Shown here: positions 1 to 37,575 of the stretch, piece after piece
Layout of the letters: each line of letters opens with the position of its first letter
How positions within the stretch are numbered: position 1 is the first letter of the stretch
Source of the DNA: Erysipelothrix urinaevulpis
GTDB taxonomy: Bacteria; Bacillota_I; Bacilli_A; Erysipelotrichales; Erysipelotrichaceae
Length of the DNA: 64,000 nt
Direction of reading: 5' to 3'
Assembly (NCBI RefSeq): GCF_009828835.1
Contig: NZ_WTTB01000006.1
Span: 62,001 to 126,000, forward strand
Notes under the pieces: model-generated
What the model was told of the DNA's origin: nothing
The model's input: the letters and a program-made list of their open reading frames with translations, nothing else
Databases searched by the model: none
Made by a program: the position numbers and the translations under genes

Positions 1-2
1 AT

Positions 3-2885
3 CAAAAGATTAATGTTGATTTAAAAAGTTTTGATTTGCGTATCATGAATAAGGTTGAACTTGATGCTTTATCTCATGATAGTGGCTTAGAAATTGATGA
101 TTTATTGATGGTTAAAACGTATTGTCAACAAAGCAATCGATCCGTAAACGAATTAGAATTAAAATTTTTAAGCACATACTGGTCCGATCATTGTCGCCAC
201 ACGACCTTTAATACCACATTAACAGACATTTCGTTTAGTGGAAAATATCAAACATTACTCGAACAAAGCTTTCATGAATACCTTGAGATTAAACGTAAAG
301 TAAGGCCTGATCACCCGATAACGTTAATGGACCTTGCACAAATTAATGCTCGAAATTTAGATCGTCAAGGGGCATTGGATGATGTTGAAAAATCTCAAGA
401 AGTCAATGCTGCCAGTATCTTTGTTGAGATTGATAATGAGGAATATTTATTAATGTTGAAAAACGAAACACATAATCATCCAACCGAGCTAGAGCCGTAC
501 GGCGGTGCTTCAACCTGTATTGGTGGTTGTGTTCGTGATCCAATGTCGAATCGTGGCACGGTGTATCAAGGCATGCGGATTACAGGATCCAAATCTCCTT
601 TAACCTCATATAATGATCGTCGTTTAGAAAAACTTAGTTCTAAAGTCATCTGTCAAAAATCTGCCCAAGGATTTTCAGATTATGCCAATCAAATGGGCTT
701 GAGAACAGATTATGTCAAAGAATATTATCATGATGGGTTTGAAGCAAAACGCTTAGAGTTGGGTGCTGTTTTAGCAAGTGCTCCAAGCAGTGATGTTATT
801 AAAAAAGAGCCCAGAGTTGGAGATCTCATTCTAGTATTAGGTGGAAGAACAGGGCGTGATGGTATAGGTGCTGCTGTTGGTTCATCAAGTGCTAATCGAG
901 AAGATGATCATCACTTGAAAGGGCCTGAAGTGCAAAAAGGAAATCCAATCATTGAACGAAACTTGATGCGACTCTTTAAGGATAGCGAGTTTACTCGCTG
1001 TGTCAAACGAAGTAATGACTTTGGAGCAGGTGGATTAAGTGTTGCTTTGGGTGAGTTAAGTGATGGTCTAGATATTCATCTGGATAAAATGAAGCTAAAG
1101 TATCCTCTAAGTCCATTAGAAATTGCGCTTTCTGAATCACAAGAACGTATGGCCATCGTGATCGATCCTGATGATAAAGCTAAGGTTTATGATTTGTCAC
1201 ATAAACTAAAGGTCGAAATTGCGGAAGTTGGGATTGTGACAAACACTCAACAATTCAGAATGTTTTATGAATCAGACTGTGTTTTACAATTTGATCGACA
1301 ATTTCTCAATGAAAATGGAGCAAAAAGAGAACAAAAAGTTCATGTCGAAACGACTGAAATTCAAGTTCAACGTGACCCAGTTAATAAAGAAAATCAAGCC
1401 GGTTTAAGATCGATGTTTGCGAATGGAAATGTAAGGAATGATTATTTACAGGAAAGTATGACGATGGCAATTCCTAATAAAAATGGATCTGATGCCGTTC
1501 ATTCTATTCTAAGTTGTGGCTTTAATCCTTGGTTAGGGAGTACAAGTCCATTTCATGCAGGGTATGAAAGTGTCATTGAAGCAATCAGTAAAGTGGTAGC
1601 AAGTGGTGGTAGTGATGAGAATGTTCGCTTAAGTTTTCAAGAGTTTTTCCCGTCTCCAAGACAGGATGAGAAGCGTTGGGGACTTGTGTTTTCTGCCATG
1701 TTGGGTGCGTTTAAAGCCATGAATGATTTAAATATACCAGCAATTGGTGGTAAGGATAGTATGAGTGGAAGTTATGAAGACTTAGATGTCCCACCTAGCA
1801 TCATCTGCTTTGCATTACAAACAAAACAAAAAAATATGATGATAGGTCATCAACTGTTAAAGCCTGACCATTATCTTATCCTTGTGAAGACACCTTATAC
1901 CTATGAAAACTTACTCGATGTCAAGCAGTATCAAGCCAGCAACAAAGTCATCCTTGAATTGATCGAAGACCAGACCATACAATCCATTGCCACAGTTAAC
2001 CATAGCCTGAGTGAAACGATCAAAACCATGGGAATCCATCATAATCTCACGGTTGCTTTCCATGATGAGGATGAAGAGTGCATACCAGTAGGATCGTATT
2101 TGATTGAATTAAAGAATCTCGATCGAGTGGATGAATTAAAAGGACAGGTTTTAGGGAAAACCGTGGTCAATGAAAAAGCGCGACTCAAATCAGCCTTATC
2201 GACAATCTATCCCTATCAAGAACAAGAAATCCTTACACCGATTACAAAACCATTCACAAACACTCACATTCAAACTGCATTAATTGTTGTTTTTGATGGC
2301 TTTGTTGAAGACATGAATTTAACGATGGCCTTAAAACAAAGAAACATCAAGGCTGACACATTTTATTTCAAAGATAATCCATTAAATCTTGCGAGAAAAA
2401 TGATGGATTATGATCTTGTATTCATAGGAGATGGGTTCAATGAACTCAATCCAATCTTTGATGGTGGTGAGATTCTTGAACTCTTATTTAGAAATGAACA
2501 CATTCAACAAGCAATCCATCAACTGAGTGATCACAACGCATATCTTATTACAAGCGGATCTTCAACACGTGCACTTATTAAGGCGAACATGTTTAATAAA
2601 GGTTATACCATTCACTCTTTTGATACTTTTAAGTATGAAAGTCGCTTAATTGTGGTCGATAGTCCAAATGGAAAAAAACACGTTCGTTTAAATGGTCATT
2701 ACAATTTCATTGAAAATATACAAGAGAAATATAACTATGCTAAAAGTCACCATGCCATTGATCAAGGGTATCGGGTGATAGATTTTAAACACGATCGATT
2801 GAATCTGTATGCAAGTTTAGGGATGATGCAAGACGAAAATTTAGATGATATCTTAGAAACGATAACAAAGGAGAAAAAATCATAA
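3..2885 (+). CDS. purL: Phosphoribosylformylglycinamidine synthase, single-chain type, 5' partial, degenerate glutaminase domain
   Basis: Converts FGAR to FGAM (purine step 4). The reading frame is open to the left edge, so the N-terminus lies outside; 960 codons are visible. Synthetase motifs seen: [51 protein letters not shown] and [10 protein letters not shown]. The C-terminal domain (about nt 2270-2885) sits where the fused PurQ-like glutaminase belongs, but GICNGFQ is replaced by TSGSSTR just before a preserved ALIK. The PGGF motif is replaced by GDGFNE, no HGEG follows, and the domain is about half the usual length. The glutaminase is therefore probably dead while the ATP-dependent synthetase part looks intact. 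The stop overlaps the purE start (TAATG). Confidence 0.93.
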
Positions 2886-3346
2886 TGATAAGAATAATTA
2901 TGGGAAGTCAAAGCGATCAAAGGATTGCTGATAAGGCGATTAAAATCTTAAATACATATTCAGTTGAGTATGAATTACGAGTCATTTCAGCGCATCGTTC
3001 ATTAAGTATTTTACAAGACTATATGAAAAAAAATGATGAGATGACCTCTGTTTATATCGCAATAGCAGGAAAAGCAGCCCATTTGGCAGGCGTGATTGCT
3101 GGGCAAACGATTAAACCAGTTATTGGTGTACCTGTCGATGGTAGCCTTCAAGGCTTAGATGCATTGTTATCCACAGTTCAAATGCCAAGTGGAATCCCAG
3201 TAGCAACTGTCGCAATAGGAGCGGCAGATAATGCAGCACTTTTAGCAATGCAAATCATTGCCCTTAACAATCCGAATCTTCAAAATGCATTGATGAATCA
3301 TCGCGAAGAAATGTTAGAAAAAATTCGTCAACTGGGTGAATTATGA
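2885..3346 (+). CDS. purE: N5-carboxyaminoimidazole ribonucleotide mutase / AIR carboxylase subunit
   Basis: Makes CAIR in purine step 6. At 153 aa it is the usual PurE length. It starts with MGSQSD (residues 6-11), then SAHRS (35-39), the AGKAAHLAG loop (about 62-70) and PVIGVPV. The SAHR motif fits class I PurE, which needs PurK to make N5-CAIR. No purK is in this window, so it must be elsewhere, or the enzyme works directly with CO2 like class II. The AIR-loop proline usual in class I (AAHLPG) is alanine here. The start overlaps the purL stop by one base and the stop overlaps purF as ATGA. Its position after purL, not at the operon front, differs from Bacillus order. Confidence 0.92.
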
Positions 3347-4440
3347 AATCAATCTTCGCTTGTTATAGTTTAAATCAAGACGATGTTAGTGATCTTATGA
3401 TTTTGGGACTTCATGCCCTACAGCACCGTGGGGAAGATGGGTTTAAACTTGACATGAAAAATAACGATGAACAGTTGAGTGTTCATGGACAAGGATTGGT
3501 CTCAACCATTAAGCAACCCACATTTGTTGCCGATATGGCACTTGGTGTCATTGATTATCAACAACACGATGATACCTTTGAAAACCAAGTCTTCATTGAA
3601 AAAGACAACCTTGTGGTTAAGCGACATGGAAGTGGCTTAAGGCCCCTTTGTTTAGGGAAGTTGAATCATACATGGATCATTAGTACTGAATCATGTGCCA
3701 TTCAAAGTGTGGGAGGTCGCTTCATAAAAGATGTCCTACCTGGAGAAACCTTATTAATCAATTCAAATGGAATCCAACAACTTTCTTACCAGTCTCAACA
3801 ACAAACGTTGAGTTTGTTTGAATATATTTACTTAGCAAGACCTGATTCTAAATTGGATGGAACCCTTGTTTATGACAGTCGAGTCGCCATGGGGAAAGCA
3901 CTTTATCAAGAATGTAAGATTGAGGCCGATGTGGTGATTGGCGTTCCTGATTCAGGGGTGATTGCCGGATTATCCTATGCACAAAGTGCCCAAATACCTT
4001 ATGAAAAAGCACTGATAAAAAACAAATATATCCATCGAACATTTATTACCCAAAAAGAAAAGACAAGAAAACTCAAAGTTGACATGAAACTTCGATTGAT
4101 TGATAGTTTGGTTGTGAATAAACGCATCATTCTAGTCGATGATTCAATTGTCCGAGGAATTACAATGAAACATCTTGTGAAGATGTTTCGGGAAGCAGGA
4201 GCAAAAGAGGTTCATGTTTTAGTCACTGCTCCCATAATTTATACAAGTACAGAGCAAGGGATTGATGTTGGGGATAGTAAAAATTTGTATTCTTATCAGA
4301 AAGATATCGAAGCCATGAAAAAGGATTTAGATTGTGAGACCCTTCACTTTCTAAGTCTTGAAAACTTAAAAAAATCGTGTGGAAATTTAAATTATTACGA
4401 GGATAACTTTTATAAAGAAAGGACAAGAAATGACGTATAA
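3343..4440 (+). CDS. purF: Amidophosphoribosyltransferase with eroded glutaminase domain
   Basis: Makes phosphoribosylamine, the first committed purine step. It has 365 aa; typical PurF is about 470-500. The N-terminus MKSIFACYS aligns with the family's ECGVFGI but has Lys where the cleaved catalytic Cys should be. GLHALQHRG is kept. The stretch that normally carries GHVRYAT, AHNGN and SDTE is missing: the protein jumps from GQGLVSTI to GLRPLCLGK. The phosphoribosyltransferase half is complete ([34 protein letters not shown] loop [10 protein letters not shown]). The C-terminal FeS cysteines of Bacillus PurF are mostly absent. Expected to be ammonia-dependent. Overlaps purE by 4 nt and purM by 11 nt. 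Confidence 0.92.
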
Positions 4441-5431
4441 AGATGCAGGTGTTGATAAAGAAAAAGGGTATCAACATGTTAAAAATATTCAATCAATGAT
4501 TAATGAAACAAAGAATGAGAATGTATTAAACGAATTGGGAGCTTTTTCAGCTCTATATCGCTTGGATCAAGACCTTAAAGAACCAGTTTTAGTTAGTGGG
4601 ACGGATGGTGTGGGAACCAAGCTAATCCTTAGTGAACGCTATAAATCTTACTATAATTTAGGGATTGATTGTGTGGCAATGAGTGTCAATGATATTTTAT
4701 GTCAAGGTGCTCAACCCTTATTCTTTTTAGATTACATTGCCAGTGGTACATTAAACCTTGAAAGAGCCAAGGAACTTGTGGCCGGAATGGTCGATGGTTG
4801 TAAACAAAGTAAGATGGCTCTTATTGGTGGCGAAAGTGCAGAAATGCCCGGAGTTTATGACAATAACACCTTTGATTTGGCTGGTTTTGCAGTTGGGGTT
4901 GTTGACTATGAAAAACGAATTGTTGGACAAGATGTCAAAGTTGGAGATGTTATTGTTGGTCTTCCTTCCAATGGCATTCATAGCAATGGATTCTCTTTAA
5001 TTCGTCACATTTATGATGACACGATGCTTGAAACGGTCGAGTTTGATAATGCCAAAAAACTTTATGAACTTCTGTTAGAACCTACACGTATTTATGTCCA
5101 AGATTATCATAAAATTAAAGATGTTGTAACTATCAAGGCGATGGCACACATAACAGGTGGTGGTGTCATAGAAAATATACCACGAGCATTAAATCATCAA
5201 TACAAAGCAAAACTTAACACTCAAACTATACCTAAACAAGCCTTGTATCAATTCATAAATGAAACGTCGAATATAGAGGGCGATGAACTCTATGCAACCT
5301 TTAATATGGGAGTCGGATTTATTTTTGTACTCGATAAGAACGATGTAGAAAAATGCTTACACTGTTTACCAGACAGCTTCGTCTTTGGAACAGTCGAAGA
5401 AGGATCTGGAGTGGAACTGGTTCATGCCTAA
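4430..5431 (+). CDS. purM: Phosphoribosylformylglycinamidine cyclo-ligase (AIR synthetase)
   Basis: ATP-dependent closure of FGAM to AIR, purine step 5, cytoplasmic. The 333 aa length is normal. Seen: TYKDAGVD at the N-terminus, VSGTDGVGTKL (about 56-66), MSVNDILCQGAQPLFFLDY, LIGGESAEMPG, GLPSNGIHSNGFSLIR and AHITGGGVIENIPR, all typical of AIR synthetase. The start lies inside the last codons of purF and the stop overlaps the purN start, so translation is likely coupled along the operon. Confidence 0.97.
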   Translation: MTYKDAGVDKEKGYQHVKNIQSMINETKNENVLNELGAFSALYRLDQDLKEPVLVSGTDGVGTKLILSERYKSYYNLGIDCVAMSVNDILCQGAQPLFFLDYIASGTLNLERAKELVAGMVDGCKQSKMALIGGESAEMPGVYDNNTFDLAGFAVGVVDYEKRIVGQDVKVGDVIVGLPSNGIHSNGFSLIRHIYDDTMLETVEFDNAKKLYELLLEPTRIYVQDYHKIKDVVTIKAMAHITGGGVIENIPRALNHQYKAKLNTQTIPKQALYQFINETSNIEGDELYATFNMGVGFIFVLDKNDVEKCLHCLPDSFVFGTVEEGSGVELVHA

Positions 5432-6050
5432 AAATATCGCAGTATTTGTCTCTGGAAATGGTAGTAATCTACAATCACTCATTGACCATCAAGGTCAAGA
5501 CTATGTCATTTCTTTAGTTATTAGCAATAATCCCAACGCCTATGCACTGAAGCGAGCCCACCGAGAAAATATTGCAGTTTTGTGTTTTGATGGCTTGAAC
5601 TATCAATCAGTTTATAAAGCATTAGCTAACGGTCAAATTGATTTCATTGTCTTGGCAGGTTATTTAAAAATAGTTCCTAAAACATTGATCGATCAGTATG
5701 AAAATAGAATGATCAATATCCATCCTTCGTTATTACCAAGTTTTTCTGGGAAAGGATTCTATGGGATTAAAGTTCATCAAGCAGTACTAAAAAAAGGCGT
5801 TAAAGTAACAGGAGCAACCACTCACTTTGTCAGTGAAGTCGCGGATGAAGGTCCAATTATTATGCAAGAAGTTGTACAGATATGTCCTCATGAAACAGCA
5901 GAAAGTTTACAAGAAAAAGTTTTGGATATTGAGTACAAAATACTTTTAAAATCACTGACACATTTATGCAGAAACGAACTACATATTCATGAAAAGAAAG
6001 TTATTATTGGAGGAAAAAATGACAAAAACAGCACTCGTATCGGTTTATGA
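5424..6050 (+). CDS. purN: Phosphoribosylglycinamide formyltransferase (GART)
   Basis: Transfers formyl from 10-formyl-THF to GAR, purine step 3. The chosen start is the ATG before PKNIAVFVSGNGSNLQ, overlapping the last codons of purM; 208 aa. The signature NIHPSLLPSFSGKGFYG (about residues 93-109) carries catalytic Asn and His, and GATTHFVSEVADEGPII follows with the catalytic Asp. The last 11 codons run over the purH start, an overlap of 32 nt. The C-terminal extension past the family end is probably nonessential and serves coupling. Confidence 0.96.
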   Translation: MPKNIAVFVSGNGSNLQSLIDHQGQDYVISLVISNNPNAYALKRAHRENIAVLCFDGLNYQSVYKALANGQIDFIVLAGYLKIVPKTLIDQYENRMINIHPSLLPSFSGKGFYGIKVHQAVLKKGVKVTGATTHFVSEVADEGPIIMQEVVQICPHETAESLQEKVLDIEYKILLKSLTHLCRNELHIHEKKVIIGGKNDKNSTRIGL

Positions 6051-7485
6051 CAAAGAAGGAATTGTTGATTATGTACGCTATTTAATGGATGAAGGTTGGA
6101 CGATAATTTCTAGTGGAGGCACATATGATCATTTACATGATCATGGTCTTAAGGTAAAAAAAGTTGAATCAGTCACTCAGTTTCCCGAGTTGCTCGGTGG
6201 ACGAGTTAAAACATTACACCCTGCAATTCATAGTGGAATTTTAGCAAGACGAGGCATTCAAGAGGATTTAAATGATCTAAAGAAACATTCACTTTTTACG
6301 ATTGATATGGTCATCTGCAATCTCTATCCCTTTGAAGAAGCAGTTAAGAACAAGTTAGAAGAAACAAAGGTTTTAGAGATGATTGACATCGGTGGACCAA
6401 GCATGATTCGTGCTGCTGCTAAAAACTATCGAGATGTCTATGTCTTGACCGATCCTTTGGACTATCAAAACCTTAGATTGCTTGATCGTAAAAAACTTGC
6501 AGGTAAAGCATTTTCCTTATCAGCACACTACGATCGTATGATCGCTCAATACTTTAATCCTGAAATTAAACACATCGAATTACAAAAGAAAACGCCGTTA
6601 CGATATGGTGAAAACCCTCATCAAGAAGCTGTGTATTATGAAGAAGAATTTCCAAGCAATCACCTAAAACAACTTCATGGTAAGGAATTATCTTACAACA
6701 ATATTAATGATTTAACGCAAGCTTTAAAAATGGTTCATGAATTTGAAAGACCAAGTGTTGTAGCTGTTAAACATGCTAATCCGTGTGGAATAGCAAGTGG
6801 AGATACAATTGATGAGGCGTTTAAGAAAGCAAAATCAGTGGATCCAGTATCGATCTTTGGTGGGATTATAGCTGCAAATAAGCCCATTGATTTTAAGACT
6901 GCTAACGAGATGAATTCACTATTCTTAGAAGTCATCGTTGCTCCATCATTCACCAAGGAGGCACTAGAGCTCTTAGAGAAAAAGAAAAATCTACGCTTGA
7001 TTGAATTCAGTAACATGGATGAATTGAGTCTAGGTAAGTGGCAGATAAAAGATGTGATTAATGGTTATTTAGTTCAAGAACAAAATTCAAAACTCCTCAA
7101 TGAAAAACTAAAAACGGTCAGTAAGCGTCAAGCGAGCAAAGAAGAAATTGATGAGTTAATGTTTGCTTGGAAGGCGTGTAAACACATGGACTCCAATGGA
7201 ATAGTGCTGGCAAAAAATCATCAAACATTGGGCTTAGGCCATGGAGAAGTACGACGATCTTGGTCACTTGAAAAAGCAATTGCTCACTCTGAATTTCCAG
7301 TTGCAGGGAGTGTCATGGCTTCCGATGGATTTTTCTTTGAGGATACCGTTGAAATTTGCCACCAAAATGGTATTGATGTGATGATTCAACCAGGTGGATC
7401 CATTCATGATGCTAAAGTGATTGAACTCGCAGATAAATATAATATGGTGCTCATTTTTACAGGAATGCGCCATTTCCAACATTAA
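6019..7485 (+). CDS. purH: Bifunctional AICAR transformylase / IMP cyclohydrolase
   Basis: Last two steps of IMP synthesis. Start chosen at the ATG 6 nt after a GGAGG (6009-6013); 488 aa, near the usual 510. The N-terminal MGS-like cyclohydrolase part shows LVSVYDKEGI and GGRVKTLHPAIHSGIL. The transformylase part shows LRYGENPHQEA, the catalytic KHANPCG (Lys-His), IFGGIIAANKP, and the C-terminal PGGSIHD with FTGMRHFQH. The family's SDAFFPF motif reads SDGFFFED, a mild divergence. One base separates the stop from purD. Confidence 0.97.
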   Translation: MTKTALVSVYDKEGIVDYVRYLMDEGWTIISSGGTYDHLHDHGLKVKKVESVTQFPELLGGRVKTLHPAIHSGILARRGIQEDLNDLKKHSLFTIDMVICNLYPFEEAVKNKLEETKVLEMIDIGGPSMIRAAAKNYRDVYVLTDPLDYQNLRLLDRKKLAGKAFSLSAHYDRMIAQYFNPEIKHIELQKKTPLRYGENPHQEAVYYEEEFPSNHLKQLHGKELSYNNINDLTQALKMVHEFERPSVVAVKHANPCGIASGDTIDEAFKKAKSVDPVSIFGGIIAANKPIDFKTANEMNSLFLEVIVAPSFTKEALELLEKKKNLRLIEFSNMDELSLGKWQIKDVINGYLVQEQNSKLLNEKLKTVSKRQASKEEIDELMFAWKACKHMDSNGIVLAKNHQTLGLGHGEVRRSWSLEKAIAHSEFPVAGSVMASDGFFFEDTVEICHQNGIDVMIQPGGSIHDAKVIELADKYNMVLIFTGMRHFQH

Positions 7486-7486
7486 G

Positions 7487-8707
7487 ATGAGGATACTCGT
7501 CCTTGGATCAGGTGGCCGTGAACATGCTCTAACCTGGAAATTAGAACAGTCACCTTTTGTTGATGTGGTTTATTGTTGCCCTGGAAATGGTGGCATCAAA
7601 AATTCAATTCCTGGTGATTTAAGTAATTTTTCAAACATAAGACAAATTGTAACGGATTTAAAGATTGATTTGACGATTGTGGGTCCCGAAGATCCATTAG
7701 CACAAGGGATTGTTGATGATTTTCACAATCATGGTTTGCGAATTTTTGGTGTTAATCAACAGGCTGCTCAACTTGAAGCAAGTAAAGCATACTCAAAAGA
7801 CTTCATGAATCGTTATGGCATTAAAACCGCCAAGCATCTTAGTTTTAATGATGCTTCATCTGCCTATGACTACTGTGAATCAATTCGCTATCCTCATGTA
7901 ATTAAGGCAGATGGTTTATATAAAGGGAAAGGTGTTATCATTGTTGAATCAAAAGAACATGCCCATGCGACACTTGACGAATTATACATTGAGAACCCAA
8001 AGCAAGTCATTCTGTTTGAGGATTACTTAATTGGGCAAGAACAATCTCTAATCTGTTTTGTATCGAATAATAAAATAATTCCATTGGGAACAGCTCGTGA
8101 CTATAAAAAAAGGCTCGAGAATGATCAAGGATTGAATACCGGGGGTGTAGGAGCCTATTCCCCTGCTCGAAGTCTTCCATCCAATCAAAATGACCAAATT
8201 AATAACATTTTAAGAAAGATAGAGAATGGATTTGTACAAGAGAAAATTTTGTATAACGGGATTTTATTCATTGGTTTTATGATTGATGACATGGATGTCT
8301 ATGTTTTAGAATTTAATGCACGCTTTGGCGATCCGGAAACACAAGTTCTCTTAGCACGCCTCCAATCTGATTTGCTAACAATCATTGAACATTGCCTTGA
8401 TGGGACACTTACAGATGATGATATCATCATGAATGATACCTTTAGCCTTATTACAGTGTTGATGTCGAAGGGTTATCCTGATTCCTTTGATATTGATAAA
8501 AAAATAGTCCTAGAAGATCAAGGGATTGTATTTCATAGTGGAACAAAATGGATTGGTCAAGACTTAGTGACAAGTGGGGGAAGAGTGCTTGGTGTATTAG
8601 AAACAGGTCATTGTTTATCAATGATGCATACCAAGAGTCTTCTAAGAATTGAAAAGATTGTGTTTGATGGAAAACAGTATCGAAAAGACATTGGACAATT
8701 GCTTTAA
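7487..8707 (+). CDS. purD: Phosphoribosylamine-glycine ligase (GAR synthetase)
   Basis: ATP-grasp ligase joining glycine to phosphoribosylamine, purine step 2, directly after PurF. The start is the ATG of MRILVLGSGGREHAL, giving 406 aa. Motifs: VGPEDPLAQGIVD, KADGLYKGKGV (ATP loop), LNTGGVGAYSP and EFNARFGDPETQ (metal/ATP site). There is no clear SD; coupling to purH, one base upstream, is likely. No terminator separates it from the pyr promoter: the pyr -35 box begins 4 nt after the stop, so read-through transcripts enter the PyrR attenuator. Confidence 0.97.
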   Translation: MRILVLGSGGREHALTWKLEQSPFVDVVYCCPGNGGIKNSIPGDLSNFSNIRQIVTDLKIDLTIVGPEDPLAQGIVDDFHNHGLRIFGVNQQAAQLEASKAYSKDFMNRYGIKTAKHLSFNDASSAYDYCESIRYPHVIKADGLYKGKGVIIVESKEHAHATLDELYIENPKQVILFEDYLIGQEQSLICFVSNNKIIPLGTARDYKKRLENDQGLNTGGVGAYSPARSLPSNQNDQINNILRKIENGFVQEKILYNGILFIGFMIDDMDVYVLEFNARFGDPETQVLLARLQSDLLTIIEHCLDGTLTDDDIIMNDTFSLITVLMSKGYPDSFDIDKKIVLEDQGIVFHSGTKWIGQDLVTSGGRVLGVLETGHCLSMMHTKSLLRIEKIVFDGKQYRKDIGQLL

Positions 8708-8960: not shown

Positions 8961-9845
8961 ATGAATGCATTACTAAGTGTTAACGATTTGAACGGCAATG
9001 ATGTTGAAACATTAATCCACCGTGCTCTTTTGTTTAAAACAACAAAAGAATATCCTAAATATAATCAAACGGTGGTTAATCTTTTTTATGAAAACAGTAC
9101 ACGGACAAAATATAGTTTTCTTATGGCCCAGCGTAATCTCGGTCTAGATATTCTAGATTTTGAAATTGAAAAAAGTTCAGTAAGTAAGGGTGAGTCATTG
9201 TATGATACATTGCTTACTTTTAAAGCAATTGGTGTTCAACTTGCAGTTGTTCGTCATCCTGAAGATGAGTTTTATAATGCACTCACACCACTCAATATGA
9301 AAATGATCAATGCTGGTGCGGGATGTGGTGAACACCCAACTCAATCCTTGCTTGATATCATGACAATTTATGAAGAATATGGTTCATTTAAAGGACTTAA
9401 TGTTTTAATTATCGGTGATTTACGTCACTCAAGAGTTGCGAAATCTAATGCGAAAATATTAACTAAACTTGGAGCAAACTTACACTTTTCATCACCTGAT
9501 ATGTATCAAGATGACGTGTTCAAACAGTTTGGCGATTATGTTGAAGTGGATCGTGTGATTGAATCAATGGATGTTGTCATGATGTTAAGGATTCAAAATG
9601 AGCGTCATGATGAATGTGGCGATTTATTGATGTATCAAAAAGAATACGGTATGACAGTAGAACGCTATAATAAATTAAAAAATGACGCAATTATCATGCA
9701 CCCAGGACCAATTAATAGAAATGTAGAGATTGTTGATGAGCTTGTTGAAGCTGAGAAATCTCGTTTTGTTGTGCAAATGGAAAATGGTGTGTATATGCGA
9801 ATGGCAATATTAGAAGCTTTGATCAATGAAAGTGAGATAAACTAA
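8961..9845 (+). CDS. pyrB: Aspartate carbamoyltransferase catalytic subunit
   Basis: Joins carbamoyl phosphate and aspartate, the first committed pyrimidine step. 294 aa. The carbamoyl-phosphate loop is FYENSTRTKYSF (about residues 43-54), followed by the KGESLYDT region, GEHPTQSLLD (about 124-133), GDLRHSRVAKSN and HPGPINRNVEI. There is no PyrI, as in Bacillus. A strong SD, AAGGAGG, lies 7 nt upstream. First gene of the PyrR-controlled operon; ends directly before pyrC. Confidence 0.97.
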   Translation: MNALLSVNDLNGNDVETLIHRALLFKTTKEYPKYNQTVVNLFYENSTRTKYSFLMAQRNLGLDILDFEIEKSSVSKGESLYDTLLTFKAIGVQLAVVRHPEDEFYNALTPLNMKMINAGAGCGEHPTQSLLDIMTIYEEYGSFKGLNVLIIGDLRHSRVAKSNAKILTKLGANLHFSSPDMYQDDVFKQFGDYVEVDRVIESMDVVMMLRIQNERHDECGDLLMYQKEYGMTVERYNKLKNDAIIMHPGPINRNVEIVDELVEAEKSRFVVQMENGVYMRMAILEALINESEIN

Positions 9846-11096
9846 ATGATTTTAAAGAATGCAAATATTTTAAGTAAAGAAGGTCATCTTCAACAAACAG
9901 ATCTAAAAATTGAAGCAGGAATCATTACTGAAATTTCTACAGAACTTTCAGGGGAAGATGAGATTGATCTACAAGGACAATTACTGTTACCAGGTTTAAT
10001 TGATGTGCATGTTCACTTAAGAGAACCAGGATTTGAACACAAAGAAACAATTAAAACAGGTAGTGAGGCAGCCATGCGTGGGGGCTTCACAAAAATTATG
10101 GCTATGCCTAACACATCACCAAGTGTCGATAATAAAGAGACCCTTGATAAAATTAACGACATCATCAAACGTGACGCTAAAATTCATGTCCATCAAATCG
10201 CAGCCATCACCAAAGACTTAGTGAGTGATGAACTTGTCGATATCAAAGCAATGGGAGCAATTGCATATAGTAATGATGGCAAAGGCGTTCAAAGGTCATC
10301 TACGATGCTAGAAGCAATGCGAGAACTTGCAAAAAATGACAAAATATTGATTGCTCATACAGAAGATGAGGATATTTTGAATGAGGGAGTAATGCATGAA
10401 GGCTTGCGCAATCAAGAACTGGGCTTACCTGGAATTTTATCAAGCGTCGAATCAAGTCAAATTGCTCGTGACTTAGTCCTTGCCCATCAAACAGGCGCAA
10501 AATATCATGTGTGTCATGTTTCAACAAAAGAAAGTGTTGCTATGATACGGTTTGCTAAACAGATGGGTGTGGATGTGACGTGTGAGGTTACACCTCATCA
10601 TTTAGTTTTAAATGAATGGGATGTCTTGGAAAATGACAGCAAATACAAAATGAATCCACCCCTTAGAAGTAGGGATGATCAAGCCTCCTTATTAGAAGGT
10701 CTACTTGATGGAACTATCGATATGATTGCAACAGATCATGCACCCCATGCACAAAATGAAAAACAAGGAGGATTTATTGATACTCCCTTTGGAATTATAG
10801 GCAGTGAAATTGCCTTTCCGCTCCTGTACACCAAAATGGTCAAAACTAATCAATTAAGTTTGCTTGATCTTTATGAAACAATGTATCGCAAACCATCTGA
10901 ACGCTTTGGATTTGAGACGACAGGAATTACAGTTGGTGCTAAAGCAGACTTAGCAGTCTTCGATCTTGATACAGCCGAAACATTTGGGCCAGATCATATT
11001 GCATCAAAATCATCGAATACACCATTTCTTAATGAAGTTCTTCAGGGTTATTGCACTATGACATTTGTGAAAGGAGAACGTGTATGGCAGAAGTAA
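9846..11096 (+). CDS. pyrC: Dihydroorotase
   Basis: Zinc amidohydrolase that cyclises carbamoyl aspartate to dihydroorotate. 416 aa, class I length. The metal motif DVHVHLREPG is near residues 57-66; HTEDE, CHVSTKES, EVTPHHL and ATDHAPHAQNEK follow in the expected order. The start codon comes one base after the pyrB stop. The 3' end overlaps the carB start by 13 nt. Confidence 0.97.
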   Translation: MILKNANILSKEGHLQQTDLKIEAGIITEISTELSGEDEIDLQGQLLLPGLIDVHVHLREPGFEHKETIKTGSEAAMRGGFTKIMAMPNTSPSVDNKETLDKINDIIKRDAKIHVHQIAAITKDLVSDELVDIKAMGAIAYSNDGKGVQRSSTMLEAMRELAKNDKILIAHTEDEDILNEGVMHEGLRNQELGLPGILSSVESSQIARDLVLAHQTGAKYHVCHVSTKESVAMIRFAKQMGVDVTCEVTPHHLVLNEWDVLENDSKYKMNPPLRSRDDQASLLEGLLDGTIDMIATDHAPHAQNEKQGGFIDTPFGIIGSEIAFPLLYTKMVKTNQLSLLDLYETMYRKPSERFGFETTGITVGAKADLAVFDLDTAETFGPDHIASKSSNTPFLNEVLQGYCTMTFVKGERVWQK

Positions 11097-14068
11097 AGAA
11101 CAAAAAGATTCTCTTAATAGGGTCAGGTCCATCGATTATAGGCCAAGGCGCAGAATTTGATTACTCAGGAACACAAGCAGCCAAAGAATTAAAAGCTTTG
11201 GGTCATGAGGTCGTTGTTTTAAATTCGAATCCAGCTAGCATTCTAACTGATTCCACAACCGCTGATGAAATATACATTGAGGCAATGACACTCGAAAATG
11301 TAATTTCAATTGTTCGTAAAGAGAAAATCAATGCAGTTTTAGGTAATTTCGGGGGACAAACAGCACTTAATATGGTGTTAGAGATGGATAAAAAAGATGT
11401 GTTTAATCGTTATAATTTGGAGTTGTTAAGTCATCCAATCCATACGATTAAAAAGGCAGAAGATCGTGAAATGTTTAGAGATTTGTTAGATTCGATAGGG
11501 GAACCGTATGTTGAATCACAAATTATCACAACAGCCCAACAAGCTAAGCAAGCAAAAACCACCTTAGGCCTTCCTTTAATTGTCAGACCTGCCTTTACCT
11601 TAGGTGGAACAGGGGGTGGTCGATGCAAAACAGATGAAGACTATCAGGAAATTGTAAAACAAGGTTTAGCACTATCACCACTGAATCAATGTCTTGTTGA
11701 ACGAGATATTTCCGGATTGAAAGAAATTGAATTTGAAATGATTCGTGATAAAACAGGTGCTATTCTTCCGGTTTGTACCTTAGAAAACTTCGATCCAGTA
11801 GGGATTCATACAGGTGATTCAATAGTCTTTACACCTGCTCAAACAATCACCCATGAACAAGAAATGATGCTTGAAACTTCAGCAATAAAAATTGTGGATG
11901 CATTAGGTATCATCGGTTCATGTAATGTCCAATTTGCTTTAAATCCTTTGACAAATCAGTATTATGTCATTGAAGTTAATCCAAGGGTTTCCCGCTCATC
12001 AGCACTTGCAAGTAAGGTCAGTGATTATCCTATCGCAAGTGTGGCGGCTCAATTATCAGTTGGAATGACATTAAGTGAAATCAAGCAACCTCATTCTAAA
12101 GAAAAAAACTATGTTGCATGCAAAATGCCACGATTTCCTTTTGATAAATTTAAAAAAGGTGATCGCCGTTTAGGAACTCAGATGAAATCGACGGGTGAAA
12201 TCATGGCCTTTGGTCGTACGCTTGAAGAATGTATGTATAAAGGTCTTGCATCTCTTGAATTAAACGATGTTGATTTCAAAGGGTACAGCGATTATGACCT
12301 ACTTAGTAATATTGAGCAAGGAAGTGATGACCGAATTTATCAAATGATTGAATTATTAAGACGTGGTGGTAGTGTTGAGGAACTGTCTATTCGTACATCA
12401 ATCGACTTAAAATTGATTGAAAGTTTACAGAAAATGGTCAAAAAACAAGCCTATTATGAAGCAACTACCCCACAATTTGCAGCAATCAATGAAAAAACTT
12501 TTTATTCTTTTGCCAGTGATTCAAAAGCAGGCAAGAAGAAACAATCAAATAAAAAAGTCATTGTTGTCATTGGTTCAGGTCCAATCCGCATTGGTCAAGG
12601 TATGGAATTTGATACGTCAAGTGTCCAAGCCGTTCAAAGTATTCAAGAACAAGGGTATGAAGCTGTTATTATTAACAATAATCCGGCAACAGTTTCAACA
12701 GATAAAGATATTGCAGACCGACTTTATTTCGAACCACTAACACCCAAACATGTCCTTGATGTACTTAATTATGAACAACCTGAGGGTGTGATTGTTCAAT
12801 TTGGAGGTCAAACGGCCATCAATCTTGTTGAAACACTCAGCGACCATAATATAAAAATTCTTGGAACTCAGGCAGATCAAATGAATCGAGCAGAAGATCG
12901 CGAATCCTTTGAAAAACTCTTAAGAAAATTGAATATCAAACAACCAGAAGCCCACATTGCTCATAATCAAGAGGATTATCTAAGTTTGGCAGATAGATTA
13001 AATTACCCTGTCCTTATTCGACCAAGCTTTGTCATAGGTGGTGCTTCGATGAAAATCATAAAAACAAAAGAAGACTACCTTGTAGAACATTCTGAATTAT
13101 CGTTTAATAAACCAGTTCTCATCGACCGGTATATCTCAGGGATTGAACTTGATTTAGATGTCATCTCAGATGGAAAAAATATTTTGATCCCAGGTTTAAT
13201 GGAACATATCGAAAAATCTGGGGTTCATTCAGGTGATTCAATGGCTGTTTATCCTAGTGTAAGCCTTGATGAAACACGACAACAAGAAATCGTTGATATC
13301 TCAAGAAAAATCGCGAGAGAATTAAAGATTAAGGGATTGATGAATATCCAGATGATCGTTCAAGATCAAGAAATATATGTGATTGAAGTGAATCCAAGGG
13401 CCTCAAGGACTATTCCATTTATTAGCAAAGCGAGTGGGATCGATGTTAGCAAACTAGCGACGAGAATCGCAATGGGTGAATGCCTTGATAAAGATTATGG
13501 TCTGATTAAAGCACAAGCAGGCATCCATATCAAAGCTCCCATATTCTCCTTTTCTAAATTGCGGAGTGTTGACACATACCTTGGCCCAGAGATGAAATCA
13601 ACGGGTGAAATTATGAGTTCTGCACCAACTTTGGAAAAGGCGTTATTCAAAGCATTCTTAAGCAGTGGGTACACCTTTAAAGAAACAGGTTCTGTTCTTT
13701 TGACCATCGCCGATAAGGATAAAGACGAGATGCTTCACTTAGCAAAGACCATCGAGTCATTAGATTATGATTTATTAGCCAGTAAAAACACCCACAATTA
13801 CTTAAAAGAACATGGCATTAAAAGTCAGCTTATCTCGAAATGGGATGAATCAAATCATGATATGAAGTGGGCGATTGAAAGTTTAGATTTAAATTTTATT
13901 GTGAATACAGTCAGTGATGAGACTAAGTCATTCTCAGATGGTTTTTTAATTCGAAGAACTGCAGTAGAAAAAGGAGTTCCTTTATTCACATCGATTGACA
14001 CTGCGCGTGCATTAGTAAAGGTTTTAGAATCAAGAAGTTCAAAACCTTGGAAACTTGGAGGTCAGTGA
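11084..14068 (+). CDS. carB: Carbamoyl-phosphate synthase large subunit, no small subunit nearby
   Basis: Makes carbamoyl phosphate from bicarbonate, ATP and ammonia. The start is the ATG after AAAGGAGAACGTGT, giving 994 aa against about 1070 in the family. Two ATP-grasp synthetase halves are complete: GSGPSIIGQGAEFDYSG / GGTGGGRC / EVNPRVSRSSALASK, then GSGPIRIGQGMEFD / EVNPRASRTIPFISK. The C-terminal MGS allosteric domain is present. The missing residues are in the central oligomerisation domain: after about residue 450 (nt 12440-12540) the usual AK..GFSD and VDTCAAEF region is replaced by a short Lys-rich linker. carA (pyrAA), which normally precedes it, is absent. Confidence 0.95.
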   Translation: MAEVKNKKILLIGSGPSIIGQGAEFDYSGTQAAKELKALGHEVVVLNSNPASILTDSTTADEIYIEAMTLENVISIVRKEKINAVLGNFGGQTALNMVLEMDKKDVFNRYNLELLSHPIHTIKKAEDREMFRDLLDSIGEPYVESQIITTAQQAKQAKTTLGLPLIVRPAFTLGGTGGGRCKTDEDYQEIVKQGLALSPLNQCLVERDISGLKEIEFEMIRDKTGAILPVCTLENFDPVGIHTGDSIVFTPAQTITHEQEMMLETSAIKIVDALGIIGSCNVQFALNPLTNQYYVIEVNPRVSRSSALASKVSDYPIASVAAQLSVGMTLSEIKQPHSKEKNYVACKMPRFPFDKFKKGDRRLGTQMKSTGEIMAFGRTLEECMYKGLASLELNDVDFKGYSDYDLLSNIEQGSDDRIYQMIELLRRGGSVEELSIRTSIDLKLIESLQKMVKKQAYYEATTPQFAAINEKTFYSFASDSKAGKKKQSNKKVIVVIGSGPIRIGQGMEFDTSSVQAVQSIQEQGYEAVIINNNPATVSTDKDIADRLYFEPLTPKHVLDVLNYEQPEGVIVQFGGQTAINLVETLSDHNIKILGTQADQMNRAEDRESFEKLLRKLNIKQPEAHIAHNQEDYLSLADRLNYPVLIRPSFVIGGASMKIIKTKEDYLVEHSELSFNKPVLIDRYISGIELDLDVISDGKNILIPGLMEHIEKSGVHSGDSMAVYPSVSLDETRQQEIVDISRKIARELKIKGLMNIQMIVQDQEIYVIEVNPRASRTIPFISKASGIDVSKLATRIAMGECLDKDYGLIKAQAGIHIKAPIFSFSKLRSVDTYLGPEMKSTGEIMSSAPTLEKALFKAFLSSGYTFKETGSVLLTIADKDKDEMLHLAKTIESLDYDLLASKNTHNYLKEHGIKSQLISKWDESNHDMKWAIESLDLNFIVNTVSDETKSFSDGFLIRRTAVEKGVPLFTSIDTARALVKVLESRSSKPWKLGGQ

Positions 14069-16403
<2,335 letters not shown>

Positions 16404-16411
<8 letters not shown>

Positions 16412-17018
16412 ATCAGAAACAATTGCAAGCTATTTATTAGATTGCGGTGCTGTTAGTTTAAGACCAGATAATTATTATACATGGGTTAGCGGCATTAAAA
16501 GTCCTATTTACTGCGATAACCGTGTGACAATTTCATTTCCAGAAATTCGTCGCTACATTACCAAGGCGTTTGTTGATATGATCGAAAACAACTATCCAGA
16601 TGTTGATGCAATTATTGGAACCGCAACAGCAGGGATACCACAAGCATGTTGGGTAAGTGATGTTCTCGACTTACCGATGGCATATGTCAGAAGTGGTCAT
16701 AAAGCACACGGAAAAGGTCAGCAAATCGAAGGGAAACTCAATGAAAATTCACAGGTGATTGTCATTGAAGATCTTATTTCAAGTGGAAAAAGTTCAATCG
16801 AAGTTTGCCAAGCTTTAGAAGAACAAGGTCATCATGTTCTTGCAGTTTTATCCATTTTCACCTATGAATTATCACGTGCTCAAACGGCATTCGAAAAAGC
16901 AGATATTCAGGTAAAATCGCTGTCAAATTATAGTGACTTAATTAGAATTGCCCAAGAAAAACATGTTATCACAGAAAAAGACTTAAATATTCTTGCACAA
17001 TGGAACAAAACAATTTAA
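16404..17018 (+). CDS. pyrE: Orotate phosphoribosyltransferase
   Basis: Converts orotate and PRPP to OMP. The ATG at 16404 is preferred over the ATG at 16398 because GGAG at 16393-16396 is 7 nt from it but only 1 nt from the other; 204 aa. The PRPP motif is [14 protein letters not shown] (about residues 113-126) and [12 protein letters not shown] is the flexible loop. Last gene of the pyr operon. No separate terminator follows before the T-box leader, so some read-through into trpP control is possible. Confidence 0.96.
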
Positions 17019-23271: not shown

Positions 23272-24183
23272 ATGAAAAAAATAATGATCGGTGTTTTACT
23301 CCTGTTCGTGATCGTTCCGGTTACGACACAAGCACAAACACAAAATGAAATTAGTTATCGAGAAATACGGACAAGTGAGGTCGTCGCCAAGGATACATCC
23401 ATTCTTTCAGATACAATTGATAGTGGCGTTGATAAAACAATAAAAGCGAATGAAACTTGGCAACCATTGCATCATGATTACATTGTTAAGGATGCTTTTG
23501 AAAATCCATTTGTCATTTTCCCAGAACCTGAATTTGGTTATGTTTTCTACTATTATCATATTGTTTACACGGACGGAATGATTTATAAAGGCCATGAAAC
23601 GGTGTTGTCATATGATGACTTAATCGCAAAAAACGATAAAGAAATCGATGAAGTAATTTTTTATTACAGTCATGGTGGACAGCTTGATGTAAGCTACAAA
23701 TTAGATTCAGAGCAAGGTGAAGACCTTCTTGACCCAACAAGTGAATTAGGAAAAGTAAGTTATGATCATTACGATAGCAATGATAACCATTATGTTGACG
23801 AAGGACAAAATTTTTCAGTCAAGACTGAGCTAGAAGGTTATCAACTAAAGGAAGTCATTGGTGATTTAAACGGTTCATTCAGTTTGAGTGCACAAAATGT
23901 AATCTTAGTGTATGAAAAAACACCGGTAGAACCAACGGAACCAACAGAACCAACAGAACCAACAGAACCAACAGAACCAACAGAACCAACAGAACCTGAA
24001 TTGGTCGAAGAAGTATTGGGTGTGAGTCAAGATAAAACACAAGTTCCAACAACACAAACAACACAGGGAACATTACCAAAAACAGGAGTTTCCATGAACG
24101 GTATGCCTTATGTGTTATTTGGAACAGGGTTAGTGATGATACTGGTTAAATATTTAATGAATACAAAAGCATCTAAAAATTAA
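23272..24183 (+). CDS. LPXTG cell-wall-anchored surface protein with TEP repeat
   Basis: 303 aa. Signal peptide (residues 1-22, MKKIMIGVLLLFVIVP.. to AQA), a body of unknown fold, a MucBP-like module (about 165-222: VSYDHYDSNDNHYVDEG to VILVYEK), a stretch of seven Thr-Glu-Pro repeats (about 225-245), then the sorting signal LPKTG (about 270), a membrane helix and a basic tail ASKN. Sortase substrate, probably an adhesin-like or matrix protein. SD AAAGGAG upstream. Confidence 0.88.
   Translation: MKKIMIGVLLLFVIVPVTTQAQTQNEISYREIRTSEVVAKDTSILSDTIDSGVDKTIKANETWQPLHHDYIVKDAFENPFVIFPEPEFGYVFYYYHIVYTDGMIYKGHETVLSYDDLIAKNDKEIDEVIFYYSHGGQLDVSYKLDSEQGEDLLDPTSELGKVSYDHYDSNDNHYVDEGQNFSVKTELEGYQLKEVIGDLNGSFSLSAQNVILVYEKTPVEPTEPTEPTEPTEPTEPTEPTEPELVEEVLGVSQDKTQVPTTQTTQGTLPKTGVSMNGMPYVLFGTGLVMILVKYLMNTKASKN
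23932..23994 (+). repeat. 9-bp tandem repeat encoding Thr-Glu-Pro
   Basis: Seven units of CCAACAGAA (the first is CCAACGGAA) inside the LPXTG gene. The unit is a multiple of three, so copy-number changes keep the frame and only alter the length of the wall-spanning stalk. Confidence 0.95.
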
Positions 24184-24888: not shown

Positions 24889-24890
24889 TT

Positions 24891-32273: not shown

Positions 32274-32301
32274 TTGGAATAAGTCCGTAAACATATATAA
32301 T
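32274..32301 (+). promoter_or_regulatory. Promoter of sdaAB-sdaAA
   Basis: TTGGAA (32274-32279), 16-nt spacer, TATAAT (32296-32301), 38 nt before the ATG. Confidence 0.6.
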
Positions 32302-32339
32302 AAAGATAGAAAATATTAAATACAAATAGAGGAGGCATT

Positions 32340-33032
32340 ATGGCAGGAAAAAAGTTTAAATCAGTCTTTGATATTATTGGACCCGTCATGGTTGGTCCAA
32401 GTAGTTCACATACCGCTGGAGCGGCACGGATTGGAAAAATGGCACGGTCCCTATTTCCAGAAAACCCAAAGCAAATCAATGTATATTTATACGAATCCTT
32501 TGCTGAAACATATCGTGGTCATGGTACCGATGTTGCCTTAGCAGGTGGATTAATGGGAATGAACCCTGATGATGATCAACTACATGAATCTTTAATACTT
32601 GCTCAAGAAAAAGGGATCAAAATAAATTTTATTCCTCTTGCAGACAAAGTGTCACACCCTAATACCGCAAAAATTGTGATGCGTGGGGATCAAGAAAAAA
32701 TGGAAGTCACAGGAATTTCTATTGGTGGAGGTAGTGCCGAGATTATTCGCGTGGATGGAAAAGAAGTCAATATTGATGGGAAGATTCCAACAATTTTAAT
32801 TAAGCATATCGATCAACCGGGTATGATTTCTCAAGTAGCGAATGTCTTGAGCAATTTAAATCTTAATGTCGCAACGATGCGAGTTGAACGTGAATCAAGA
32901 GGGTGTGAAGCGTACATGGTGATCGAGATTGATGACCATGATGAGATTGGAAATGCTGTTGAAATATTAAACTCAATGGATTGTGTTTTAAATGTTTCAC
33001 ATATTGATTTAAGGGAGGATAGCAATGTTTGA
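32340..33032 (+). CDS. sdaAB: L-serine dehydratase, beta subunit
   Basis: 230 aa. The N-terminal domain shows FDIIGPVMVGPSSSHTAGAARIGK (substrate/allosteric site), RGHGTDVALAGGLMG and SIGGGSAEI. An ACT domain, LIKHIDQPGMISQVANVLSNLNLNVATMRV, is C-terminal. With the alpha subunit it converts serine to pyruvate and ammonia in an iron-sulphur-dependent reaction. SD AGGAGG upstream; overlaps sdaAA by 8 nt. Confidence 0.96.
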   Translation: MAGKKFKSVFDIIGPVMVGPSSSHTAGAARIGKMARSLFPENPKQINVYLYESFAETYRGHGTDVALAGGLMGMNPDDDQLHESLILAQEKGIKINFIPLADKVSHPNTAKIVMRGDQEKMEVTGISIGGGSAEIIRVDGKEVNIDGKIPTILIKHIDQPGMISQVANVLSNLNLNVATMRVERESRGCEAYMVIEIDDHDEIGNAVEILNSMDCVLNVSHIDLREDSNV

Positions 33033-33897
33033 TACGATTGAGGCATTAGTTCAAAAAGCAGAAGAACGTGGTTCTTTATCCGAATTAATAATTGAAGAAG
33101 AAATAAGAGATTCTGGTCATTCAAGAGACTATATTTGGGAACAGATGACCTATCAATTAGATGTGATGAATAAAAGTATTGAACGAGGTATTCAAGGGGT
33201 TAAATCAAAAACTGGATTAACAGGTGGAGCAGCAAAACAAATTCATGAATACATTAAAAAAGGAAAAATGATTAGTGATCCTACTATTCTAACAGCTGTT
33301 CAAAATGCCGTTGGAACAAACGAAGTGAATGCATCGATGGGATTAATCTGTGCAACACCAACTGCAGGTAGTGCAGGAGTTGTACCAGGAGTCTTGAGTG
33401 CTTTAACTCAAAAGTATGAACTCACTGAAGAAGAACAGATACGCTATTTATTTGTTGCAGGTGGCTTTGGTTTGGTTGTGGCTAATAATGCCTCAATTAG
33501 TGGAGCCATGGGTGGATGTCAAGCAGAGATTGGGAGTGCCTCGGCAATGGCGAGTGCTGCAGCCGTCGATGCATTAGGTGGAACGCCTAAAATGGCAGCT
33601 CATGCTTTTGCCATGACAATCAAGAATATGCTAGGTCTTATCTGTGATCCTGTGGCAGGTTTAGTTGAAGTTCCATGTGTAAAAAGAAATGCGCTGGGTG
33701 CATCCCAAGCCATCATTTCTGCAGATATGGCACTTGCAGGTGTCGAAAGTATTTTACCAGCCGACGATGTTGTTTTAGCTATGCATAAAGTTGGGCAGGA
33801 TATGCCATCAAAATATAAAGAAACTGCAGAAGGTGGTCTTGCAGATACGCCAAAAGCACGACAATTGGAAGCAGAAATTTTTAACGAAAATTCTTAA
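33025..33897 (+). CDS. sdaAA: L-serine dehydratase, alpha subunit (iron-sulphur)
   Basis: 290 aa. Conserved cluster and active-site regions: SMGLICATPTAGSAGVVPGVL, ISGAMGGCQAEIGSASAMASAA, GLICDPVAGLVEVPCVKRNALGA and MHKVGQDMPSKYKETAEGGLADTP. The Cys in GGCQAE, ICDPVAG and VPCVKR are the expected [4Fe-4S] ligands. Two-subunit type as in Bacillus. It releases free ammonia, which is of interest given the ammonia-dependent enzymes elsewhere here. Confidence 0.97.
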   Translation: MFDTIEALVQKAEERGSLSELIIEEEIRDSGHSRDYIWEQMTYQLDVMNKSIERGIQGVKSKTGLTGGAAKQIHEYIKKGKMISDPTILTAVQNAVGTNEVNASMGLICATPTAGSAGVVPGVLSALTQKYELTEEEQIRYLFVAGGFGLVVANNASISGAMGGCQAEIGSASAMASAAAVDALGGTPKMAAHAFAMTIKNMLGLICDPVAGLVEVPCVKRNALGASQAIISADMALAGVESILPADDVVLAMHKVGQDMPSKYKETAEGGLADTPKARQLEAEIFNENS

Positions 33898-33992
33898 AAA
33901 TCCTTTTTCATGACATTTAAAGGCACTTTGATAAACATTTAGTTTGCTTATCCAAGCGATTCGCTATACTAAGTTTGAAAGGTGGTCGTATC

Positions 33993-34964: not shown

Positions 34965-34988
34965 GACTAAGTTTACTTAGTCTTTTTT
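34963..34988 (+). terminator. Terminator after the epimerase gene
   Basis: AAGACTAAG-TTTA-CTTAGTCTT followed by T run; overlaps the stop codon. A TATAAT for glpK starts at 34991. Confidence 0.85.
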
Positions 34989-35018
34989 GTTATAATAAGT
35001 AAAAGCGAGGTTTTAATA

Positions 35019-36503: not shown

Positions 36504-36570
36504 GAAAGCCACAAACCTTTACAATTTCAACTCATTACGATAAGATTATGAGGTATGAAATGAGGAGCTT

Positions 36571-37575
36571 ATGTCGAAAATAATTATACCAAAAGACTAC
36601 CAATCAACGTTAGGTGTCTATGAGACACAAACAGCAATTGGTAATATAAAAAAGTGGTTTGAAGAAGCGTTAACAGGAAGTTTGAAGTTAAAAAGAGTTT
36701 CAGCACCTTTATTTGTTGCTCAAGAATCAGGATTGAATGATGATTTGAGCGGTGTTGAAAGACCGGTCAGTTTTCATGTTCCAGCTTTAGAAGCAAAAGG
36801 TGAAGTCGTTCATTCTTTAGCAAAATGGAAACGAATGGCTTTGCATCAATATGATTTCCGAATTGGAAATGGTCTGTATACGGATATGAACGCAATTCGT
36901 CGAGACGAAGAATTATCCAATATTCACTCTATTTATGTTGATCAATGGGACTGGGAACGTGTCATTGACAACGATCAAAGAACATTAACATATTTAAAAG
37001 ACACAGTTCAAAGTATTGTGAACGCAATAGTCGAAACGTCAAGTCGCTTGCACACTAAATATCCAGAAGTCGATGTCTTCATCGATTCAAATGTCAGCTT
37101 TATTAGCAGTCAAGAATTAGAAGATATGTACCCTGAACTTACATCAAAAGAACGTGAAAATGCATACGTAAAAGAACACCCGACAACATTTATCTATCAA
37201 ATTGGTGACACCTTAAGAAGTGGGCAACCACACGATGGAAGAGCGCCAGACTATGATGATTGGAAACTCAATGGTGATTTACTCTTTTGGCATGAAGCTT
37301 TAGGGATGGCCATGGAATTATCAAGCATGGGAATCCGAGTGGATGCAAAGAGCTTAGATGAGCAATTAAATAAGGCAGACGCTAACGACAAAAGACGCTA
37401 TGAATTTCATCAACGCGTCCTAGATAATACCTTACCATTAACAATTGGTGGTGGAATTGGTCAAAGTCGTATGTGTATGCTGTTGTTAGGAAAAGCACAT
37501 ATTGGGGAAGTCCAAGTGTCACTTTGGGATGATGAAACAATTCAATGTTGTGAAAATAAAATTCATTTACTCTAA
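36571..37575 (+). CDS. asnA: Aspartate-ammonia ligase (ammonia-dependent asparagine synthetase)
   Basis: 334 aa, class II tRNA-synthetase-like fold. It makes asparagine from aspartate, ATP and free NH4+, with no glutaminase domain. Seen: YETQTAIGNIKKWFEEAL, LKRVSAPLFV, GVERPVSFHV, HSLAKWKRMAL, GLYTDMNAIRRDE, YVDQWDWE, RAPDYDDWKLNGDLLFWHEALG and GGGIGQSRMCMLLL. Notable alongside the glutaminase-less PurL, PurF and CarB of the same window. Confidence 0.97.
   Translation: MSKIIIPKDYQSTLGVYETQTAIGNIKKWFEEALTGSLKLKRVSAPLFVAQESGLNDDLSGVERPVSFHVPALEAKGEVVHSLAKWKRMALHQYDFRIGNGLYTDMNAIRRDEELSNIHSIYVDQWDWERVIDNDQRTLTYLKDTVQSIVNAIVETSSRLHTKYPEVDVFIDSNVSFISSQELEDMYPELTSKERENAYVKEHPTTFIYQIGDTLRSGQPHDGRAPDYDDWKLNGDLLFWHEALGMAMELSSMGIRVDAKSLDEQLNKADANDKRRYEFHQRVLDNTLPLTIGGGIGQSRMCMLLLGKAHIGEVQVSLWDDETIQCCENKIHLL

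Follow-up and report, generated by a model that had tools for sequence, protein, structure and literature searches.

Loss of glutaminase parts from nucleotide and NAD synthesis enzymes of Erysipelothrix urinaevulpis suggests synthesis on free ammonia

The stretch of Erysipelothrix urinaevulpis DNA analysed here (the window; 64,000 nucleotides, C21:62001-126000) belongs to an assembly of 24 contigs totalling 1,909,597 bases (92.84% complete, 0.9% contaminated). It opens with a purine (pur) operon followed by a pyrimidine (pyr) operon, both on the forward (+) strand and with all their frames open within the window. An earlier note on the same DNA had claimed that three of the encoded enzymes, PurL, PurF and CarB, have lost their glutaminase parts and kept their synthetase halves; domain searches, alignments and checks of the catalytic cysteines bear this out.

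The large phosphoribosylformylglycinamidine (FGAM) synthase PurL (1101 aa in total, open frame) starts outside the window, 421 bases further upstream (C21:61580), and occupies positions 1..2885 within it; by sequence reading, purC lies upstream. The FGAM synthetase core is recognised by Pfam (AIRS domains and linker). The C-terminal glutamine amidotransferase (GATase) domain has decayed: Pfam GATase_5 fails to match it at a threshold as loose as E ≤ 1, and no Cys occurs beyond residue 881, the comparison being with what we take to be the Cys motif of a normal large PurL. PurF (365 aa; 3343..4440) has kept its transferase half and has had most of its glutaminase half deleted. Compared with the solved B. 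subtilis PurF (1ao0) it gives a weak match at 11-56, after which residues 165-429 are aligned, with the vddsivrg motif inside the alignment and a Pfam Pribosyltran match. The N-terminal catalytic Cys is gone and an N-terminal nucleophile (Ntn) glutaminase domain is no longer recognised; a stop codon lies one codon upstream of the ATG, so no earlier start is possible. A single-sequence structure prediction gave no usable model of this protein (mean predicted local distance difference test score, pLDDT, 31.3).

CarB, the large subunit of carbamoyl-phosphate synthase (11084..14068; Pfam and NCBIfam), keeps both synthetase halves and the MGS domain (1172.8 bits versus an NCBIfam cut-off of 599), its oligomerisation domain being shortened and under the Pfam cut-off. 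The gene start overlaps the end of pyrC (dihydroorotase; 9846..11096, NCBIfam), which directly precedes it with no carA in between. PF00117 has three places in the whole genome (PyrG, a GuaA remnant and a Peptidase_C26 hydrolase; positive in 14 of 14 control genomes). None is fit for CarA, and the genome search thus yielded no CarA that carries a recognisable GATase; a GATase-stripped CarA was not searched for. HisH, looked for through PF00117 only, is not among the three places either, and the pur cluster holds no separate PurQ (no genome-wide PF13507 search was made). Searches of the genome for proteins that would speak against the claim, namely an intact CarA, a second PurL or a PurF whose glutaminase domain can still be recognised, came back empty.

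The two operons are otherwise complete; their remaining genes are purE (2885..3346; NCBIfam TIGR01162), purM (4430..5431), purN (5430..6050), purH (6019..7485), purD (7484..8707), pyrB (aspartate carbamoyltransferase, 8961..9845), pyrD (14815..15729) and pyrF (15722..16411), each identified with NCBIfam, together with pyrK (the electron-transfer subunit of dihydroorotate dehydrogenase, 14069..14818; Pfam DHODB_Fe-S_bind) and pyrE (16398..17018), assigned by its best NCBIfam match. Nine of the ten other pur and pyr proteins score over the cut-off of at least one curated NCBIfam model, PyrE alone falling under. Outside the genus, the 29 best-scoring PurF loci from other genera of the family keep the Cys in 28 cases, the other being a fragment. 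Because nine of the ten neighbouring proteins pass a curated cut-off, PurL and PurF are Cys-less in all five genomes of the genus with PurL (see below) and 28 of the 29 PurF loci from other genera have the Cys, the pattern in PurL, PurF and CarB is beyond chance.

The earlier note had proposed inspecting GuaA, PyrG, GlmS and NadE in the same genome. All four are affected, and glutamine synthetase could not be found either. In the CTP synthase PyrG, Ser382 replaces the catalytic Cys (GISLGMQ, codon TCT, versus GICLGMQ in ten relatives), turning the triad into Ser-His-Glu with His and Glu kept; the synthetase domain is present (795.1 bits versus a cut-off of 308, TIGR00337). The GMP synthase GuaA has only 441 aa, a GATase match confined to positions 1-78 and no Cys before residue 121. 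It lacks the GATase segment that carries Cys, His and Glu, and keeps the ATP-PPase and C-terminal domains (541.6 bits versus an NCBIfam cut-off of 400). The IMP dehydrogenase encoded next to this short guaA (L003 339-1472) has only 377 aa, less than what we take to be the usual form with CBS domains. NAD synthetase (NadE) is of the two-domain type, in which the place of the nitrilase Glu is taken by Arg, the Cys is missing and the Lys is present; the NAD synthetase domain is kept.

In the whole genome, the class II GATase model PF13522 gave no match at E ≤ 10 (14/14 control genomes positive; PF13537 was not searched for) and GATase_3 (PF07685) none at E ≤ 1 (14/14 controls positive, 13 over cut-off). 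The best GlmS match reaches 77 bits against a cut-off of 418. The best of six model matches, and the only one read, lies at C11:4176; it is a 323-aa SIS protein that reads from sequence as sugar-phosphate deglycase-like, because a GntR-type regulator and a phosphotransferase system (PTS) part adjoin it. Glutamine synthetase gave no match (14/14 controls positive).

We considered whether the pur and pyr operons are relics in decay, in a cell that lives on salvaged bases, the glutaminase parts having gone first. A uracil permease is encoded in the window, eight of the 13 genus genomes have no PurL match and one relative (G105) has purL in two frames, all of which would suit this explanation. The open frames and curated scores described above argue against it, as does the gene order purC-L-E-F-M-N-H-D, which by sequence reading is common to this species and the relatives G103 and G105. 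Moreover, the same loss, combined with strong scores of the synthetase part, is seen in CTP synthase, GMP synthase and NAD synthetase, none of which salvage easily replaces. We therefore regard decay under salvage as unlikely.

The genus comparison covered 13 Erysipelothrix genomes, the window genome (G000) and 12 relatives. Some of the same losses occur in six of the relatives, partly through different mutations, and none in the other six (G096, G097, G098, G099, G100 and G102). In these six, PyrG and NadE retain their Cys, GuaA is full-length, GlmS and glutamine synthetase are present, and PurL gives no match. PurL was found in five genomes, each time without the Cys; what is left of GATase_5 ranges from matches of 4.8e-26 (G095), 3.9e-7 (G101), 3.5e-6 (G103) and 3.5e-4 (G105) to nothing in E. 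urinaevulpis. The adjoining PurF has lost its N-terminal Cys in 5/5, the domain also being trimmed in this species, G103 and G105. The PurF model was searched within the genus in G000 and G082 only; PF13522, run on all 13 genomes, revealed no further PurF glutaminase. In G105, whose pur cluster is otherwise complete, purL (L161 13298-16689) is spread over two overlapping frames (605 and 531 aa), which may reflect a genuinely split gene, a frameshift or an error in sequencing.

GuaA is short in six genomes and full-length in eight, both forms being present in G105. The PyrG Cys is lost in three (Ser in this species; Gly, together with His to Gln, in G101 and G104) and that of NadE in four (this species, G095, G101 and G104). 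CarA was seen in two genomes, G082 and G105, and has Gly at the Cys place in both, as read against what we take to be the motif; the GATase match of each protein (L168 852-1865 and L169 1097-2170) covers just the first half of that domain. G082 has this Gly-bearing CarA beside intact PyrG, GuaA, NadE and GlmS. GlmS scores over cut-off in eight genomes, and in G104 it is cut by contig ends but begins MCGIVAY. Glutamine synthetase was found in eight and not in G000, G095, G101, G103 and G105. The genes for glutamine synthetase and GlmS adjoin in G082 and G104, so a single deletion could remove both. On a marker tree (midpoint-rooted, supports 52 to 100, long branches) the losses are scattered over the genus. 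The scatter suggests repeated loss.

The completeness of the window genome leaves room for intact CarA, GlmS and glutamine synthetase to sit in its unassembled part, and the absences in G095 (88% complete) and G101 (84%) are weak. Yet the losses within the assembled PurL, PurF, PyrG, GuaA and NadE cannot be gaps, and G103 and G105, single contigs whose stated completeness is also only 94, likewise have no GlmS over cut-off and no glutamine synthetase. An assembly gap is therefore a very improbable explanation.

Among the families searched, GatCAB alone turned up as an amidotransferase whose catalytic residues are in place. GatA, with gatB adjoining its gene, keeps the Lys and both Ser of the Lys-cisSer-Ser arrangement, which we take to be the catalytic residues, by comparison with solved GatA and in 13/13 genus genomes. 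Next to the catalytic Ser, the 13 genus loci read TGDS (for example L170 3375-4679) and solved GatA reads TGGS.

The earlier note had also raised a shared ammonia-delivering partner, and a separate glutaminase or amidase might indeed feed ammonia to the bare synthetases, with glutamine or another amide as the ultimate donor. The genome offers only two candidates (the standalone glutaminase GlsA was not searched for), and the idea of a shared partner is unsupported. One is the Peptidase_C26 hydrolase (L002; Pfam match 3.3e-69), which keeps the class I Cys motif. Its best NCBIfam match is gamma-glutamyl-gamma-aminobutyrate hydrolase, under cut-off, however, and similar proteins occur in G082 and G098, where PyrG, GuaA and GlmS are intact. 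The other is a second amidase frame (L151; 469 aa at C11:66339), matched in only six of the 13 genomes, some of them with intact glutaminases. No glutamine synthetase was found to supply such an enzyme with glutamine, and we think this explanation improbable.

The reading that we prefer is that purines, pyrimidines, CTP, GMP and NAD are made by synthetases working on free ammonia, that glutamine is probably no general nitrogen carrier and that glutamine residues are made on tRNA; we give it a probability of about 0.78 from the gene content and residues described. The earlier note had proposed from PurL, PurF and CarB that glutamine is no longer the nitrogen donor, either in a lineage that lives in high ammonia or through the shared partner, and the further losses in PyrG, GuaA and NadE strengthen that joint explanation. 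Glutamine would not be a general carrier because GlmS and glutamine synthetase were not found either, and the ammonia reading draws support from the fact that the losses hit unrelated folds at once (class I, class II and nitrilase type). Deletion, decay or exchange of the nucleophile would account for the loss of the glutaminase half of each enzyme, leaving a synthetase that takes free ammonia. In vitro, such enzymes can work with free ammonia (PMC3376133), and E. coli PurF remains able to use ammonia after replacement of its Cys (PMC3261824). Cellular ammonia is typically low since glutamine synthetase captures it, according to the former source (PMC3376133). Loss of that enzyme would remove a competitor for ammonia, and once the glutaminase halves were gone the cell would have to hold enough of it. 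The remaining role of glutamine would be as a protein residue made on tRNA by GatCAB, with imported glutamine or asparagine from AsnA as the probable amide donor. The sequences show the losses, the conserved synthetase domains and the absence of the domains that were searched for; ammonia use by these enzymes in vivo, a sufficient supply of ammonia and the donor for GatCAB are points that we infer.

The window contains two genes that the earlier note had linked to ammonia, and both are as it described them. sdaB-sdaA (32340..33897, +) encodes L-serine ammonia-lyase, a possible ammonia source, and asnA (36571..37575, +) an ammonia-using asparagine synthetase whose product is the possible amide donor for GatCAB. 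They would fit such a cell but are no proof of it, both being ordinary in E. rhusiopathiae, which has AsnA, SdaAB and a glutamine pathway together (PMC9769512).

Several other observations weigh against the preferred reading. The part of PurL inside the window scores 699.7 against a TIGR01857 cut-off of 1057 and PurF 246.1 against a TIGR01134 cut-off of 350 (both NCBIfam). The PyrG change is a single base and could be an assembly error; in G101 and G104 the loss involves two altered residues. The glutaminase halves of PyrG and NadE show no excess of change relative to their synthetase halves: the ratio is 1.74-2.26 for PyrG versus 1.21-2.53 in 18 of 21 intact pairs, and 1.36-1.51 for NadE of this species versus 1.31-1.79 in ten intact pairs. 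The nitrilase halves of NadE are only 26-35% identical between loss and intact genomes, compared with 49-58% among intact ones, but the synthetase halves are likewise less alike (50-64% versus 66-77%). With the scaled ratios inside the intact-pair range, relaxed selection on the PyrG and NadE glutaminase halves is unsupported. The Amt transporter that the earlier note had suggested looking for was not found in any of the 13 genus genomes. The residues kept in GatA imply that one enzyme using glutamine or asparagine probably remains. Absences from a genome of this completeness and in this many contigs are no proof; G103 and G105 back them up.

A short GuaA, too, is widespread elsewhere. A genome scan with the short form as query, from which the best 80 loci among the matches listed were kept (L179-L258), gave 75 of 80 in which the Cys motif is missing, and 70 of those 75 also have a short N-terminus; the kept loci lean to the short form and no frequency can be read from them. 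Many of the carriers are gut Bacillota, among them Lachnospiraceae, and Bacteroidales. The two best loci come from Erysipelothrix metagenome-assembled genomes and are identical to G104 and G101 over 3,216 and 3,144 bases. This rules out the GuaA loss as unique. The scan loci have the same short architecture as GuaA here, which differs in being the only GuaA found and in being accompanied by losses in other systems. A 2012 survey lists no such form (PMC3376133).

The window further encodes a surface-type protein that combines TEP repeats with an LPKTG sorting signal (23272-24183) and, about 8 kb apart, two heavy-metal P-type ATPases (50470-52866 and 60398-62542) with copper-like and zinc/cadmium-like matches. 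A second surface-type protein (L004 8424-10793) lies upstream of the pur cluster.

The role of glutamine as general nitrogen donor in nucleotide synthesis comes near to being a textbook rule. In Table 1 of the 2012 survey, the 'No Glnse' column is empty for PyrG (800 genomes), GuaA (730), PurL (660) and CarAB (600) and gives 44% for NadE (PMC3376133). The single-domain NadE of the E. coli type resembles the present case in that its authors concluded that it uses free ammonia in vivo (PMC3376133). NadE here is of the two-domain type, with the nitrilase domain still attached but its Cys lost. Animal carbamoyl-phosphate synthase I, which carries a natural Cys-to-Ser change, is likewise a synthase without a working glutaminase, and solved CPS1 entries match CarB; it differs from the bacterial pyr operon described here, in which no small subunit was found, two relatives having CarA with Gly. 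AsnA, for which ammonia use is established, offers an example of ammonia-using amide synthesis within the same window, although its occurrence in E. rhusiopathiae means that it is no evidence alone (PMC9769512). Crenarchaeal PurF' is PurF-like, lies in a purine gene cluster and lacks the N-terminal Cys, and its authors offer ammonia use as one possibility (PMC3261824). PurF' sits beside a normal PurF according to the same text, whereas here a single PurF was found, with most of the glutaminase domain deleted. No account of several such losses in one organism was found in the open-licence literature, searched by titles and abstract openings. Taken singly, each enzyme has a precedent or something close to one; for the combination that includes loss of glutamine synthetase there is none as far as the literature was searched.

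A bolder version of the preferred reading would be that the bacterium gave up glutamine as nitrogen carrier altogether, having neither glutamine synthetase nor GlmS nor a working glutaminase in purine, pyrimidine, CTP, GMP or NAD synthesis. Ammonia would then be the entry point for all of this nitrogen, and glutamine would occur solely as a residue formed on tRNA, its amide likely coming from asparagine that AsnA makes; the genus would have reached this state stepwise, perhaps several times. We put this forward tentatively, at somewhat less than even odds. If true, ammonia channelling would be dispensable where ammonia is plentiful, natural ammonia-only versions of several enzymes would become available for structural and kinetic work, and the genus could let the order of loss be read.

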